From a virus: a stretch of DNA of 30,478 nucleotides. Both the position numbers and the translations under genes were made by a program. Shown piece by piece: positions 2,845 through 9,678 of the stretch. The DNA is taken from positions 5,452-35,929 of the IMG/VR virus record IMGVR_UViG_3300030328_001354. The stretch is one strand, 5' to 3'. The first letter of the stretch is position 1; each line of letters opens with the position of its first letter. The notes below the pieces were generated by a model. That model made no database searches, was not told where the DNA came from, and worked only from the letters and a program-made list of their open reading frames with translations.

Positions 2845-4281
2845 TTATAATCTCCAACCTCTCGGTTTATTAACTTTATCAAGGTTACTCATCAATTCAC
2901 CGACAGTCGGCTCTCTCCAAATATCCTCATCTAATTCAGGTAATTTCCTTGTGTATGGTCTTGACATACAGGCATAACGAATATCGTCTGCTGCATGATC
3001 TTCCTGTGTGGTATCAATATCTTCCATTCGGTGCTTATCATGGGTTAAAACTGGTATTGTTCTAATGCTGTCTACACAATCTTTGAACATATAAAGCATG
3101 GGAACACCATCATCCCCAATTAACCTCTGCCTAACCTGATCCCAACCATTTATGCGTGAATTATCTGCCCTTCTAAAACGCACTCCCATTTTAGACAATC
3201 TTTCACCTATAGATGGACCACCATCAAATTTCCATATAGATGGATCAGCTACAGAATAATCTAATTTGCCATCTTCTTTTTCTCTTGCCCTTATCCCTGC
3301 ACCAACTTCTTCAGCAGTCATTCTAATGCCTACATTCGGTCTACTTGACCCATACCACTCCCTGTACCTAACCAATGCACCATCTGGTATAGTCTCATGT
3401 CCTTCAGCTACTGCCCACCAACCTACAGAAAATGGCGAAGCTGAACCCCAATCAAATGACCTAAACTTTAACCAGTAATGAGGTATCTGAAATGGTCGGA
3501 TAACATGAATATCCCTTTTCCAAATATCCCCAAAGAATGAACCTACAACTAAATCCCAATCACCATCTCGCAATGCCCTAGCTAATTCCTCTGGCAAACC
3601 AGAAAACGAACTCGCATAATTAGGATCAATATATTTATTATCCTGCATCTTGGCAGGAATATACATGGTTAGCCAACCCTTATCTTTTGGATTATCTGGG
3701 TTGCGCATGGTTACATCATAAAAATAAGTTTCTCCTGGAGCAGGATCAATATACAAACTCTTTAAGAAATTATGACTTTGACCACCAGGATTGGCAGTCA
3801 TTACTAATCTCGGTAAATACTCCTTCTGCTTTGGCTCAAAAGAACCAAGTCTCATTCTACTTTTAATATAACCAAGCTGATAAGCAGTCATCTGTCCTGC
3901 TTCATCAATCCCTGCTATATGTATTTCTGTTCCCTGAATACGATCACAATCACTATCTCTTTCCAAATACTGAAACTGGATAGAACTACCATTGTAAAAT
4001 TCAAATCTTTTTCTGGTTTCATTAAAATTACCCAACTCATTAGGCAATTCTTTTTTCAATGGCTGAATGTGGTTAGCATCTAACTCTGGCAAAGACCTTC
4101 TAAAAATAAAGGCATTTAACCCTGCATTTTCAAGGCAAAAAGCAATTATATCCCATCTTAAACTATGGCTCTTTCCACCCCCTGCTGCACCACCAAACAA
4201 TATCTGCTGTGCCTTACACTTGTGCAACAACTCCTGTTTAGGTTGAGGAGTGTACTCAAGTTTGATCGTCTTTTGTGCCAT
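2845..4281 (-). CDS. terL: Terminase large subunit
   Basis: The 478-residue protein is the DNA-packaging motor and headful/cos nuclease. Visible motifs are Walker A GGAAGGGKS (30-38), Walker B HIAGIDE (121-127, catalytic Glu127) and the coupling motif MTANPGG (161-167). The C-terminal RNase H-like nuclease has acidic residues in SFDWGS (Asp277), SVADPS (Asp346) and EDHAADDIRY (Asp428 and Asp432 region). All expected elements are present and the length is usual for the family. It lies downstream of the small subunit, with a 162-base non-coding gap between them, and abuts the portal gene. Confidence 0.95.
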   Translation of the reverse strand: MAQKTIKLEYTPQPKQELLHKCKAQQILFGGAAGGGKSHSLRWDIIAFCLENAGLNAFIFRRSLPELDANHIQPLKKELPNELGNFNETRKRFEFYNGSSIQFQYLERDSDCDRIQGTEIHIAGIDEAGQMTAYQLGYIKSRMRLGSFEPKQKEYLPRLVMTANPGGQSHNFLKSLYIDPAPGETYFYDVTMRNPDNPKDKGWLTMYIPAKMQDNKYIDPNYASSFSGLPEELARALRDGDWDLVVGSFFGDIWKRDIHVIRPFQIPHYWLKFRSFDWGSASPFSVGWWAVAEGHETIPDGALVRYREWYGSSRPNVGIRMTAEEVGAGIRAREKEDGKLDYSVADPSIWKFDGGPSIGERLSKMGVRFRRADNSRINGWDQVRQRLIGDDGVPMLYMFKDCVDSIRTIPVLTHDKHRMEDIDTTQEDHAADDIRYACMSRPYTRKLPELDEDIWREPTVGELMSNLDKVNKPRGWRL

Positions 4282-4443
4282 TGTGCAACCTGATAGATTT
4301 TATTTTGTTGTGCGTGGGTGCGTGTTTGTATATCGTTTTCGCCCTCGCCAAAAAGTTAATGTCTGGGGGTCAGGCATGGGGGGGATATATCTAGTAAATG
4401 TCTAGTAGACTTTCAAAACCCTAGCAAATCCAATGGTTACAGA
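4282..4443. other. Non-coding gap between small and large terminase; possible packaging site
   Basis: This 162-base gap is unusual in an operon where most neighbours overlap. It contains G-rich runs unlike the AT-rich surroundings (a GTGCGTGGGTGCGTG-type stretch near 4310-4325, and two runs of G near 4365-4383), a CGCCCTCGCC block near 4341-4350, and a direct repeat TCTAGTA at 4390-4396 and 4401-4407. No convincing ORF is seen. Packaging start sites (cos or pac) often lie in or near the terminase genes, so this is a candidate. That is inference from position and composition only. Confidence 0.3.
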
Positions 4444-5586: not shown

Positions 5587-6388
5587 GTTTCACCTCAAAT
5601 AAATACTGATATTTTGCAGGACAATATGTTTTAAACTGTGGATCGTCAGGTCTAGGACAATCATTAACAGACCATCTACCTCTACCCCACATACCTGCAT
5701 AAGTTTCCCATTTAGTCTGCTCTCTATCAATATTCAGCGCAGATAACTCTTTCGTTTGATTATCAAAGATTTTGAACAGGTAGGCACGAACATTACCTTC
5801 AGGTTTATTCTCTGCACCCTTCCTTAAAATAGATAAGACCAGTTTTTCCTTATCTGCCCTATCCTTATAACCTGCCTTAAACGACATAGATAGAAGTTGT
5901 CCTATAATATCCCCTGCTTCTTTAAAGGAAGTATATTCTGTAAGCCAATTCTTATACCATTGCCATTCATTCTGTGGAACAGGTTTACCCTGTTCTGCCA
6001 TTTGTATCTTTTCTTTACTTAGTATATCTCTTTCTTTAGTAGTGTACTGATTTGCCGTATCTGGTTCAGCCGTATCCGATAAACAAGGAAATGGTGAATC
6101 ATAAACATAGTAGGTAAATTCAGCATACTTACCCTCAACTCTATGTGCTTCTCTTACAATGTATCTTTCTTTGATTAAACTTGAGATGACCTTGTAGGAT
6201 TTATCTTTTCCAAAGCCAAACCTATTCTGTATATTTGTTGGCTTTACAATCCAGTTAGAAGGTTTTGATAGTAAATACACCAAAACTGCCAAACTATCGG
6301 CATCTAACCTATCATTGTTAATAAGATCATTAGGCATAACCGAATAGTTATCTTTTAAAGATGATTTAATGATAAAATCTTCACTCAT
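5579..6388 (-). CDS. Winged-helix phage replication protein
   Basis: The 269-residue protein begins with a winged helix (residues about 15-85, including MPNDLINNDRLDADSLAVLV and a recognition segment NRFGFGKDKSYKVISSL) and ends in a helical domain with conserved-looking WQWYKNWL and Trp/Pro-rich segments. The layout fits phage replication initiators of the lambda O/DnaD-like class, which bind the origin and recruit the helicase. No helicase or polymerase is visible in the window, so host replication proteins are probably recruited. It overlaps the radical SAM gene (ATGA) and the DUF6362-like gene. Confidence 0.65.
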   Translation of the reverse strand: MSEDFIIKSSLKDNYSVMPNDLINNDRLDADSLAVLVYLLSKPSNWIVKPTNIQNRFGFGKDKSYKVISSLIKERYIVREAHRVEGKYAEFTYYVYDSPFPCLSDTAEPDTANQYTTKERDILSKEKIQMAEQGKPVPQNEWQWYKNWLTEYTSFKEAGDIIGQLLSMSFKAGYKDRADKEKLVLSILRKGAENKPEGNVRAYLFKIFDNQTKELSALNIDREQTKWETYAGMWGRGRWSVNDCPRPDDPQFKTYCPAKYQYLFEVKHE

Positions 6389-7401
6389 TGCATCACTTCC
6401 AAATTTTTTTTGTAAAAATCAAATTTAGGCATTGCATCAAATGTTGTTATGCTTCTGTTGTAATAAAATCTTTTATAATCTTTCCATGATTTATGTCGGT
6501 AATCTCCTCTAACAACAAATCTCTGAAACAGTTTTAAATCTTTTTTCTGCTGTAGTGGATCGTAAACCATAGGATAGGGCAGAACCCCTATATCAACCAT
6601 TTTATTAAATCTGTACCAAATTCTTTCCCAAGTTTCTCTACGATCATAACCAATCAGCATATATGCCATAATGTGATTAGGTTTTATTCCATGTTTAATA
6701 AGTAAATCTACACCTTTAAAAAATCTTTTTTCATCTCCAATATTATCCCAAGCTGTGTATATTCTTTTATTTTTGAATTGGTCATCCATATAATTTAATG
6801 TTGATAATTGTTCGGCTACAGTTTCATCTATCAAACGAATATTTATTCCCTGATTAAAACAAACTTTAAATTTTCCTTCTTTTATTTCTTTAACTCTTGC
6901 AGTCCAATCTTCCTCTGGCTGACCAAAGAAATCATTGTCTAGCAAATGCAATTTTTTAGGAAAATCCTTACCTCTCCAAATGTCATAAACAGTTTGTACT
7001 GATTTATTTTTACCTTCTTTGGTAGGAACTACACAAAATTTACATTTTAATCTGCAACCTCTTTGTGTAAAGCCAAGACTAAATTCGTAATCTGGATAAA
7101 ATGAATAATCTAATTTATCATAACTACCAATATAATCCTCTACTTTAAGAGCAAAATTATCAGTACCAGTTCCACCTATAATTGCATTTGGGTAGTTTTT
7201 TTTAAGTCGTTCAATTCTGTTAATAGAAAATTTAAATATACTTGATGCAAAAACAAAATCATATTCTTCATCAAACAAATCTTTATTAACTGATCTGGTA
7301 AAAAATACCTCATAATTTTTTTCTTTAAAATATGAACTTAATTTCATAAGTGCTAAATTAGGTAATTTGCCATCTATTTGAATAAGTTTAATTTTACTCA
7401 T
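6385..7401 (-). CDS. Radical SAM protein with B12-binding-like N-terminus
   Basis: The 338-residue protein carries the radical SAM cluster motif CxxxCxxC at Cys116, Cys120 and Cys123 (GCRLKCKFC), which binds a [4Fe-4S] cluster to cleave S-adenosylmethionine. Residues 1-95 alternate strands and helices (IKLIQIDGKLPNLALMKL, then DFVFASSIFKFS, then AIIGGTGTD) like the Rossmann B12-binding domain of the B12-radical SAM superfamily, though no clear DxHxxG cobalamin motif is seen. The rest fits a TIM-barrel (LHLLDNDFF, VCFNQGINIRLI, AYMLIGYD). Its substrate cannot be read from sequence. It sits among DNA-modification and nuclease genes. Its ATG overlaps the stop of a tiny Cys-rich ORF. Confidence 0.8.
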   Translation of the reverse strand: MSKIKLIQIDGKLPNLALMKLSSYFKEKNYEVFFTRSVNKDLFDEEYDFVFASSIFKFSINRIERLKKNYPNAIIGGTGTDNFALKVEDYIGSYDKLDYSFYPDYEFSLGFTQRGCRLKCKFCVVPTKEGKNKSVQTVYDIWRGKDFPKKLHLLDNDFFGQPEEDWTARVKEIKEGKFKVCFNQGINIRLIDETVAEQLSTLNYMDDQFKNKRIYTAWDNIGDEKRFFKGVDLLIKHGIKPNHIMAYMLIGYDRRETWERIWYRFNKMVDIGVLPYPMVYDPLQQKKDLKLFQRFVVRGDYRHKSWKDYKRFYYNRSITTFDAMPKFDFYKKNLEVMQ

Positions 7402-7475
7402 TGCTTCACCTTACAAATAGGACAAACATGGTTACATAGTGCAACCTTGCATTTGATACACAGCTTAACTTTCAT
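7398..7475 (-). CDS. 25-residue Cys-rich peptide (mini zinc-knuckle-like)
   Basis: A short ORF begins at ATG 7475 (or the tandem ATG at 7478) inside the end of the methyltransferase gene and stops at 7398, overlapping the radical SAM start as ATGA. It therefore fills exactly the only gap between those two genes. The peptide has five Cys and one His in 25 residues: CIKC at 6-9, then CNHVCPIC at 14-21, and is otherwise Lys/Val-rich. Paired CxxC motifs suggest a metal-binding knuckle. The pre-radical-SAM ribosome site (AAGGTG) lies within it, so translation coupling is an alternative role. Confidence 0.5.
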   Translation of the reverse strand: MKVKLCIKCKVALCNHVCPICKVKQ

Positions 7476-8463
7476 CATGCTCTGCAACCTTAATGGCATA
7501 AAACAATTCTGCTGCAACCTGTGGTACAATACTATTTCCTAATGATTTCAACTTTTTTGTCCTGTCTTTTTGGTTTTGGGCAACTCTTGGGATGTCTTTT
7601 GGTTCTTCGGAGAAATGTCCAGATAATGCTTCGGATAACCCATCAGCCATGTAACCCAATCTGCGTTCAAAGTTCCCACTCCTGTGTTTCTCACTTGTGG
7701 ATCGTTCCCTAACATCTTTTGCATCTTCTGTCTCTGTAACTGTGCTACTGCTGTGACTAGACTTATCTGCCCATCCTTCTCTCTCAGATGTTTCTCTGAT
7801 CTTGGACCTCTGCTCCCATCCCATGCGTTTGGGGTTGGGTACATCATCATGGTTTTCTGATCTACTTGCTCCCTCAAATTGCCTGGTCGTTTCCTGCCCT
7901 TTCTGTGTCCTTCCTGCAACTTCTTCGTTGCTTCCTCTGATCTTGGTGGCAAGTGATCCATTGTGTTCGGAGTTGCCAATAATCCATACTCTGTCTCGTC
8001 TGTGGGGAGCATTTTTGGCACAAGCTGGAATAACAACCGATTGAACGGAGTAACCTTCGTTTTCCAAATCAGTTTGGACTTGTTCGAATAAAACCCCTTC
8101 GTTGATGTTAATAAGACCGACAACATTTTCCCCAATAATATATTTTGGTTTGCAATCTTGTATAATTCTAAGCATTTCATCCCAGAGCCACCGATCATCT
8201 TCTGTTGCTTTTTGTAGTCCTGCTTGGCTAACTGCTTGGCAGGGAAATCCTCCTGCGACAATATCAATTCTTCCAAGTCCAGTTGCATCTATTGTCCTGA
8301 CATCATCATATATCGGTACATCTTTCCAATGTTTGCGAAGTACCTGCTGACAGAATTTATCCTGTTCACAAAAGGCAACTGTTTCATACCCACCAACAAG
8401 TTTTTCTGCTGCGTAACTAAAACCACCAATGCCACTAAAGAGATCAAGCAAACGCATAACCAT
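7465..8463 (-). CDS. DNA C5-cytosine methyltransferase
   Basis: The 332-residue product transfers a methyl group from S-adenosylmethionine to carbon 5 of cytosine in DNA. Motifs, counted from the ATG at 8463, are motif I LLDLFSGIGGFS (5-16), motif IV GGFPCQ with nucleophile Cys75, motif VI GENV (111-114), motif VIII HRRDRVW (154-160), and motif X SLGNSIVPQVAAELF near the C-terminus. The region between motif VIII and the C-terminus, where the target-recognition domain should be, is very hydrophilic and Ser/Glu/Arg-rich, and this same DNA has a long open second frame. The start at 8463 is just after the stop of the upstream nuclease gene (TGAC-ATG), preceded by GGGAG; ATG at 8457 is also possible. 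It probably protects phage DNA from host restriction. Confidence 0.88.
   Translation of the reverse strand: MVMRLLDLFSGIGGFSYAAEKLVGGYETVAFCEQDKFCQQVLRKHWKDVPIYDDVRTIDATGLGRIDIVAGGFPCQAVSQAGLQKATEDDRWLWDEMLRIIQDCKPKYIIGENVVGLININEGVLFEQVQTDLENEGYSVQSVVIPACAKNAPHRRDRVWIIGNSEHNGSLATKIRGSNEEVAGRTQKGQETTRQFEGASRSENHDDVPNPKRMGWEQRSKIRETSEREGWADKSSHSSSTVTETEDAKDVRERSTSEKHRSGNFERRLGYMADGLSEALSGHFSEEPKDIPRVAQNQKDRTKKLKSLGNSIVPQVAAELFYAIKVAEHDES
7548..8288 (-). CDS. Second-frame ORF inside methyltransferase, methyltransferase-C-terminus-like
   Basis: A 246-codon frame runs in the same direction as the methyltransferase, shifted +1, across its middle and 3' part. Unlike an ordinary shadow ORF it has protein-like features from about residue 68 on: KLIWKTKVTPFNRLLFQLVP, then EYGLLATPNTMDHLPPRS, YPTPNAWDGSRGPRS, and GTLNADWVTWLMGYPKHYLD. 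The 'PTPxAxD ... LNxxWVxWLMGxP' pattern resembles the C-terminal part of many annotated phage C5 methyltransferases (from memory, not searched). The first about 65 residues look unremarkable. It may be reached by ribosomal frameshifting from the main frame, by internal initiation, or be a relic of an ancestral frame. No ribosome site decides a start. Confidence 0.4.
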   Translation of the reverse strand: MQLDLEELILSQEDFPAKQLAKQDYKKQQKMIGGSGMKCLELYKIANQNILLGKMLSVLLTSTKGFYSNKSKLIWKTKVTPFNRLLFQLVPKMLPTDETEYGLLATPNTMDHLPPRSEEATKKLQEGHRKGRKRPGNLREQVDQKTMMMYPTPNAWDGSRGPRSEKHLREKDGQISLVTAVAQLQRQKMQKMLGNDPQVRNTGVGTLNADWVTWLMGYPKHYLDISPKNQKTSQELPKTKKTGQKS

Positions 8464-8464
8464 G

Positions 8465-8863
8465 TCATAACATCTCCCTTGCAATCATGGCATAAGTGTC
8501 AAAATCCATATCGGTTACATATCGCCAATCTCTTTCTGCTGTTTCTACCTTGTTTAAGATAGACATTGGCACTCTTACTCTTACTGGTAATCGGTCAAAT
8601 CTATAGATTAAAATAGGAATTTTCCTACACATATTAGCAGCAGTACAAGTCTGTACCCACCATTTTTCATCAGGTAAAAACCCTTTTCTTCTGCGCTTAC
8701 ATTCTATGGCAAATGGAAAGTCTGTATCTTCTGATATTAAATCGCCATGATCTTGGGTTCTGTATTGTTCAATATCTCTTTTCAGCTTTATGCCTAGTTC
8801 GTCATAATGAAGCTGTATAACCTCATACTCAAAACCTTTTCCCTTGTTTCTGCTATCAGTCAT
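8465..8863 (-). CDS. PD-(D/E)XK nuclease, possible Holliday junction resolvase
   Basis: With the start at ATG 8863 (overlapping the stop of the upstream gene as ATGA) the product has 132 residues. It shows the core of PD-(D/E)XK nucleases: Glu13 in FEYEV, acidic residues in DHGDLI (38-43), and FAIECKRR (51-58) giving the E-x-K pair Glu54/Lys56. Size and motif layout resemble Hjc/phage resolvases that cut branched DNA before packaging, but a restriction-type or repair nuclease is equally allowed. A longer upstream start (8893) would run far into the previous gene and lacks support. Confidence 0.7.
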   Translation of the reverse strand: MTDSRNKGKGFEYEVIQLHYDELGIKLKRDIEQYRTQDHGDLISEDTDFPFAIECKRRRKGFLPDEKWWVQTCTAANMCRKIPILIYRFDRLPVRVRVPMSILNKVETAERDWRYVTDMDFDTYAMIAREML

Positions 8864-9678
8864 CCAGTACACTCCCCTAAATTTGCTTGGCAAAAATAAC
8901 CTTGTTGGTCAAACACCCAATCTTGTTGTTGATTTACAAATTTATTCATTTTTTTTAAGTTACGATCTCTGTTAAACTGTTTGCCAGTTTGCAATTCCAT
9001 ATCAATCCACCACTTACTTTTTTCTGGATATTGTTTCATCATCATGGCTAGTTGTGCTTCAGATTTTAAAAAACACAGATCACAATTACCCATTAAGGTT
9101 TTGCCTTTAACAATAGGTAAATTAAGTTTAAAATTTTGTTTGTTCCAAAAAGTTTCTATGTCAAATAAAGTAACTTTATTATTTACAAGAGGATAAAAAG
9201 GATAAAATCCATCTCTAAAATCTGTCTTTGCTCTATGTTTTTCATCATGTCTTATACCAAGAGCATTTTGCCAATGTTTCCAATGTAATTTTTGCAAATA
9301 TTTTTGTGCAGTTTGAATTTTTAAAATACCAGTACAAAATCTCTGTAAAGCATTTGGTAATCTTCCATACTTTAATATAATTTTTTTAAAGGGTTCTCCA
9401 TTGCGACTAGCTGAATTATGATTTACTTTTTTAAAGGTGTTTTTGTTGTTTATCTGATTATATTCAAGCCATACAATATCTACATTCCATCTATTAGAAC
9501 ATTCTTGAACAAAGTCTAAAGTCTGCTCCATTTCTCTGCCAGTATTTGTAAAAATAACTTTAGCTTTATCTGGCAATCCATCATTAGCTTCTAATATCTT
9601 GTAAAGCATATAAGCTGAAGTCCGACCACCACTAAAACTAATCTGCACATTTTCTTCTGGTAATAAATAATCAGGCAT
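8860..9678 (-). CDS. PP-loop ATPase, PAPS-reductase-like family
   Basis: The 272-residue protein has an N-terminal PP-loop, SFSGGRTSAYM (residues 14-24), which binds ATP in adenylating enzymes of the PAPS reductase/sulfurtransferase superfamily, followed by VIFTNTGREM, typical of phage 'phosphoadenosine phosphosulfate reductase' homologues. Further Cys-containing motifs are RFCTGILK, GNCDLCFLKS and CQANLGEC near the C-terminus, which could form a metal or iron-sulfur site. True sulfate reduction is unlikely for a phage; nucleic-acid or base modification is plausible. It lies between a zinc-binding protein and the nuclease/methyltransferase genes. Substrate is unknown. Confidence 0.75.
   Translation of the reverse strand: MPDYLLPEENVQISFSGGRTSAYMLYKILEANDGLPDKAKVIFTNTGREMEQTLDFVQECSNRWNVDIVWLEYNQINNKNTFKKVNHNSASRNGEPFKKIILKYGRLPNALQRFCTGILKIQTAQKYLQKLHWKHWQNALGIRHDEKHRAKTDFRDGFYPFYPLVNNKVTLFDIETFWNKQNFKLNLPIVKGKTLMGNCDLCFLKSEAQLAMMMKQYPEKSKWWIDMELQTGKQFNRDRNLKKMNKFVNQQQDWVFDQQGYFCQANLGECTG

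Follow-up and report, generated by a model that had tools for sequence, protein, structure and literature searches.

Several bacteriophages, SPR and phi3T among them, encode multi-specific C5-cytosine methyltransferases whose modular target-recognition domains are exchangeable by recombination. Enzymes of the same class can also be made of two polypeptides, as is M.EaeI, like M.EcoHK31I (YGGCCR). The small chain of M.EcoHK31I reportedly starts inside the gene of the large chain, in a different reading frame, and both chains are said to be required. The large chain carries motifs I to VIII and X and is described as containing a predicted target-recognition domain, the small chain providing motif IX (PMC3404938). 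Another partition is found in M.AquI, in which motifs I to VIII are borne by one chain and motifs IX and X by the other (PMC3404938).

The locus considered here lies in a stretch of 30,478 nucleotides (hereafter the window) taken from a 35.9-kb virus record that carries portal, terminase and integrase genes. An initial annotation had recognised in its main frame (frame A) a methyltransferase with motifs I, IV, VI, VIII and X, had pointed to an odd polar stretch in the recognition region of that frame, and had noticed a +1 frame (frame B) open for 246 codons over the same DNA. All of this was borne out: frame A matches PF00145 (E = 3.1e-46), TIGR00675 and PHROG_363 (E=7.5e-75) and its motifs could be located, the hydrophobic/aromatic content of the region is 15% in A vs 24% in B, and the +1 ORF was found exactly at 7548-8288 (minus strand), from an ATG, with the three peptides singled out by that annotation, GLLATPNTMD, YPTPNAWDGSRG and LNADWVTWLMGYP, all present in it. 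The ORF of frame A spans 8484-7465 (minus strand) and is open up to a TTG at 8484; its start is likely the ATG at 8463, which is preceded by AAGGGAG. The features of frame A, in window coordinates, are the following.

7465..8463, minus strand: frame A, catalytic chain of a C5-cytosine DNA methyltransferase (PF00145, TIGR00675, PHROG_363)
8419..8445, minus strand: motif I of A, DLFSGIGGF, AdoMet binding (sequence)
8227..8253, minus strand: motif IV of A, GGFPCQ with the catalytic Cys (sequence)
8122..8139, minus strand: motif VI of A (ENV) (sequence)
7978..8007, minus strand: motif VIII of A, PHRRDRVWII (sequence)
7597..7977, minus strand: polar linker of A, standing where the target-recognition domain would be, with no motif IX (hydrophobic fraction 0.15; no stops)
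7513..7596, minus strand: C-terminal part of A, DIPRVA...LKSLGNSIVPQVA, with motif X at 7513-7542 (sequence; substitutions after the B stop)

Frame A holds in one chain the motifs I, IV (PCQ), VI (ENV), VIII and X by which a C5 methyltransferase is recognised, but lacks the target-recognition domain and the motif IX expected in the same chain; no canonical motif IX was detected in A in any of 189 distinct nested relatives. As regards its neighbourhood, directly upstream lies a PDDEXK/RusA-like nuclease (window 8465-8893, minus strand), which overlaps the A ORF at its 5' end and is accompanied on that side by a phosphoadenosine phosphosulfate reductase-like protein (window 8860-9678, minus strand); a radical SAM protein (window 6385-7401) is found downstream.

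Frame B runs from the ATG at 8288 to the stop at 7548, +1 relative to A and wholly inside the A ORF (7465-8484). It matches PHROG_1008 (E=4e-24), the family of frame B, which bears the label 'DNA methyltransferase', and gave no match in a Pfam search. Its features are given below.

7548..8288, minus strand: frame B, nested +1 gene of 246 aa, proposed target-recognition subunit (ORF, family matches, selection, openness)
8295..8298, minus strand: Shine-Dalgarno AGGA, 6 nt before the B ATG at 8288 (sequence; enrichment over 89 distinct starts)
8022..8069, minus strand: core of B, IWKTKVTPFNRLLFQL, predicted beta hairpin (columns conserved beyond what A forces; AlphaFold strands 72-79 and 85-92)
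7842..7979, minus strand: cassette 1 of B, LATPNTMDHLPPRS... (present in 71/80 loci of diverse phages)
7671..7841, minus strand: cassette 2 of B, YPTPNAWDGSRG... (other cassettes instead in L006 and L007)
7614..7670, minus strand: LNADWVTWLMGYPKHYLDI of B, motif IX-like (hhalign against canonical C5 methyltransferases)

Across its relatives, B displays a common layout with an N-terminal part of the form ...TWKxKxTxxxRLLFQL..., between one and eight modules, each some 30-50 residues long, that open with (W/Y/L)PTPxAxD, and a C-terminal end of the form LNPxWVEWLMGFPxGWTDL. Near-identical phages swap these modules: the window, L006 and L007 have the same cassette 1 and differing second cassettes, and longer arrays occur in L009 and L010. 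In hhalign comparisons of B with canonical C5 methyltransferases, the motif IX-like part alone aligns, its counterpart being the canonical motif IX LTPxECxRLQGFPDGW (E=0.0012 to 0.0084, from one comparison and a short alignment). The AlphaFold model of B alone is weak (pLDDT 65, pTM 0.31), and neither a Foldseek search of this model against the PDB nor a profile search of B against PDB sequences returned a match; such an outcome would not be surprising for a chain that acquires its fold only together with its partner, but it proves nothing. In L050, L051 and L052 (B ORF 2958-4293), B continues for about 400 bases after A has ended and seems to be joined to an additional domain (...KTRPHLPPKDIFLNYLKKNLNKKELIAADIIKKTTIDHWLRSDHCFAYPTKEYW...).

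The openness of frame B exceeds what frame A would produce by chance. In synonymous shuffles of A, the longest +1 open run averages 110 codons and reaches 246 in 1 of 2000 (p = 0.0005); the observed +1 length was attained by no shuffle in 62 of 65 loci, the third frame being mostly unremarkable in the same test. Where B overlaps the catalytic motifs, it contains 3 stops in 109 distinct loci vs 192 +/- 9 in shuffles. Reciprocally, the A linker shows 0 stops in 11,569 codons of the recognition zone vs 443 expected from synonymous shuffles of B (65 loci), which argues that A is read through this zone. Openness is maintained in both frames. In the same 109 loci, individual B residues of the catalytic overlap are moreover conserved beyond the constraint exerted by A, with a W at 98% vs 39%, an L at 100% vs 31%, and two S at 97-98% vs 41-45%. 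Given the few stops and these residues conserved far past what A forces, B is, as judged from the alignments, a protein over nearly its whole length.

The distribution of substitutions points in the same direction. Substitutions were counted by A codon position in 664 pairs of relatives which, being non-independent, yield patterns and not p-values. For A positions 1/2/3, the region upstream of B gives fractions of 0.22/0.16/0.63 and the part where B covers the catalytic motifs 0.32/0.16/0.52; the recognition zone gives 0.61/0.22/0.18, and the stretch past the B stop 0.13/0.16/0.71, with A codon position 3 favoured again. Since A position 1 is B position 3, the constraint shifts to frame B in the recognition zone and returns to A past the B stop. 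The same pattern is seen in the recognition zone of the window's own lineage, with 208/92/75 substitutions at A positions 1/2/3. In the same line, the ATPNTMDHLPPRS cassette is 67-90% identical to that of divergent phages in frame B vs 29-50% in frame A.

Matches to B were retrieved from 70 phage records, 571 IMG/VR relatives and 205 GTDB relatives. Among 80 of these 205 GTDB loci, selected by B, 72 combine a nested +1 frame with motif X in A, the nested loci belonging to Bacillota, Bacteroidota, Pseudomonadota and other phyla. When relatives were chosen by the N-terminus of A alone, that is before the overlap, B was found in 68/68 of those whose A is intact and ends within its contig. The ATG of B usually stands directly after an in-frame stop, or within a few codons of one, with a Shine-Dalgarno sequence ahead (AGGAcaatagATG in the window; AAGGAGttagcaaATG, GAGGAGGAtataaaaATG and AAAGGAGGActtttATG in other loci). 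A Shine-Dalgarno match of at least 5 nt accompanies 54% of 89 distinct B starts; the corresponding figures are 10% for the remaining +1 ATGs and 25% for synonymously shuffled sequences. Internal initiation of B is therefore favoured by the presence of a Shine-Dalgarno sequence and an ATG at its predicted start. In a few relatives a clear ATG is missing at this position, and B may start at GTG or TTG instead.

Compared by description and not by sequence, the motif split between A and B is that of M.EcoHK31I: motif X in A (together with I-VIII) and a IX-like end in B are found in 186 of 189 distinct nested loci, with a loose B pattern and a short IX alignment. The start of the small chain inside the large gene, in another frame, is seen in the window and its relatives, as it reportedly is in M.EcoHK31I. 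The predicted recognition domain of M.EcoHK31I, in contrast, is described as part of its large chain, whereas A has a polar linker and the cassettes belong to B, often as multi-cassette arrays, in genes of phages and prophages from many phyla. A look-up of the EcoHK31I gene in the enterobacterial plasmid records examined gave only methyltransferases without a recognised B annotation, and frame B had no enterobacterial match. M.AquI (CYCGRG, alpha and beta chains) is likewise a naturally split C5 methyltransferase in which two chains make one enzyme, but motif X is in its small chain, whereas here A carries X, and the whole of B is nested. As for the SPR and phi3T type, it shares with this locus the presence of several recognition modules per enzyme, but carries them in the catalytic frame, whereas the modules are here in the +1 frame and would probably act in trans.

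Both of these other arrangements occur among actinophage relatives only. In Phinally gp5 (L095) and L224, homologous PTP modules, an EWMMGWP segment and motif X follow motif VIII in the catalytic frame; catalysis and recognition are thereby in one frame, unlike here, usually with a residual +1 ORF of one to three cassettes. The region from motif VIII to the end of these single-frame enzymes aligns with the B cassette region (hhalign 97.8%, E=1.3e-12), and such profile comparisons show the cassettes to be homologous to the VIII-X segment of single-frame phage methyltransferases. The model of the L224 protein is that of a C5 methyltransferase (HhaI E=6e-13), with a pLDDT of about 80-92 from EWMMGWP to motif X and a disordered cassette part. 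In L216, L219, L223 and Drake94 (L091), A ends past motif VIII and the array with IX and X is in +1, which makes them the most M.AquI-like forms. Among L205-L229, L091 and L095 as a whole, the array with IX and X is in the catalytic frame in most relatives and in +1 in these four; frame-changing indels between cassettes seem to shift the actinophage array between frames.

Several explanations can be considered for the two frames. The view that B is a frame shadow, open merely through the codon usage and composition of A and matched in databases through mis-annotation, finds some ground in the inconsistent annotation of B, which is frequently called 'methyltransferase', and in the part of its N-terminal similarity that is forced by A. 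The openness, the stop counts and the pile-up of recognition-zone substitutions at the B wobble position nevertheless contradict it, as does the identity of the common cassette, far higher in B than in A, and this view is rejected as having next to no probability. The overprinting suggested by the initial annotation is upheld in turn, B being open beyond chance, conserved, selected and provided with its own start; shadow annotations and stops in close relatives had been named as what would speak against it, and B is open in essentially all relatives, has a ribosome-binding site to itself and is the selected frame in the recognition zone. The same annotation had also envisaged programmed frameshifting, which fared less well. 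A +1 frameshift fusing motifs I-VIII of A to B, and so producing another form of the enzyme whose target-recognition C-terminus comes from B, would restore the usual motif order up to IX, and the end of A right past VIII in the actinophages L091, L216, L219 and L223, where B holds the rest including X, would fit with it. A frameshift product is expected to show a conserved slippery site and a downstream frame without a start of its own, whereas B has its own Shine-Dalgarno sequence and ATG, shows conservation ahead of any place where a shift would be useful, and shares no common slippery string between motif VIII and the first cassette (CCCT-like in 32/122 loci); the A linker is also kept open through to motif X. 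A frameshift is for us very improbable, and two complementary subunits are a better reading than two forms of one protein with different C-termini. Lastly, A could be untranslated in the recognition zone, through a double recoding from A to B and back to A or as a relic. The canonical motif order would then be obtained, and cassette arrays are indeed found in either frame in actinophages, but two recoding events would be required, B has its own start, and A is free of stops through the zone; hardly any credence can be given to this proposal.

Taken together, these comparisons show B to be a conserved and selected coding frame with its own predicted start, and the motifs of A and B to be complementary. 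We consider it likely, with good though not full confidence, that the locus encodes a two-polypeptide C5-cytosine methyltransferase in which A is catalytic and the internally started B supplies target recognition and motif IX in trans, because of the dual coding, the own start of B, its presence in relatives, the complementary motifs, the homology of the cassettes and the M.EcoHK31I precedent. In this model, A would comprise the AdoMet-binding and catalytic motifs I-VIII, then a long polar linker, then motif X; B, translated independently in the +1 frame from an internal ribosome-binding site, would provide the target-recognition cassettes and the motif IX-like segment, and the two would assemble into the active enzyme. 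PTP cassettes swapped or added in B would alter its specificity. The DNA of the recognition zone would be coding in B and a mere linker in A, and since the latter would tolerate almost any stop-free sequence, this DNA would be free to evolve in frame B. We infer that B is produced, that it associates with A and that it determines the target, the methyltransferase probably serving to shield the phage DNA from restriction. Of the link to target specificity drawn by the initial annotation, the idea itself stands, with cassettes in B that are homologous to the in-frame VIII-X slot, and the alternative C-terminal forms through which it was to operate do not. One could also propose that B is a real nested protein without being a methyltransferase subunit, namely an independent phage factor, for instance one that regulates or inhibits either A or the restriction of the host. 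The coding evidence is silent on function, B alone has no known fold, and a second nested +1 gene, B', lies over methyltransferases complete in one chain, which indicates that nesting can occur without the need for a subunit role. Such an independent role nonetheless seems unlikely, since neither motif IX nor a plausible recognition domain is ever present in an A that is paired with B, the B cassettes occupy the VIII-X slot in single-frame enzymes, and M.EcoHK31I offers a precedent.

The two-subunit reading can be extended, tentatively and with slightly less than even confidence, to a widespread class of phage and prophage methyltransferases whose specificity would be a cassette array in an alternative frame acting in trans: one catalytic subunit would be programmed by a nested multi-cassette recognition subunit, recombination in the overlap would alter the target range with the catalytic chain untouched, and one phage might methylate several motifs. 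The architecture itself is already known in kind, from M.EcoHK31I. What is new, as far as the searched literature goes, is its breadth in phages and prophages, the evidence of selection in both frames, the cassette arrays in a nested frame, and the connection with actinophage forms of the single-frame and AquI-like types; no account of nested +1 genes in phage C5 methyltransferases was found in that literature, most subscription journals being outside the search. These data suggest that the M.EcoHK31I oddity is a common architecture in phages and prophages. Except in small viruses, long same-strand overlaps in which both frames are selected are rarely seen, and ORFs of this kind are mostly dismissed as shadows; the logic of this overlap is clear, the same DNA specifying the recognition domain in one frame and only a linker in the other. 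Besides, the nested layout would explain the 'methyltransferase' labels that databases put on both frames, some records annotating both in this way and others just one. A further prediction is that A, if expressed without B as is implied by most annotation, would lack activity or specificity. The layout also puts on offer a putative natural split C5 methyltransferase with swappable cassettes.

Some records show particular features. In KT997847.1 (L002, 1218-2162), the methyltransferase is annotated as two CDS, broken in an A-rich stretch after which A resumes in another frame, the break being a probable sequencing error; B is annotated there as a putative methyltransferase. In Lactobacillus-type phages (L003 2164-2880; L098 2083-2790), the next gene overlaps the end of the A/B gene by 8 bases, and in Lc-Nu the gene after A/B is annotated as a second putative methylase.

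Finally, B' is a different nested +1 ORF of about 140-160 aa, of the pattern ...CSLSDILE...KYYLSxKACxGILRRAEKRGKxLP, lying over single-chain phage C5 methyltransferases that retain motif IX (L087 1663-2143; L090 1594-2074; L093 1645-2068; L180-L198). Its family is PHROG_16143, as determined from the L087 protein. Substitutions by A position in its C-terminal part are 0.75/0.10/0.14, vs 0.18/0.09/0.73 upstream of B', so that 75% of them fall at the B' wobble position. This concentration suggests that the +1 frame of B' is selected as well, and B' has the look of another family of nested genes.
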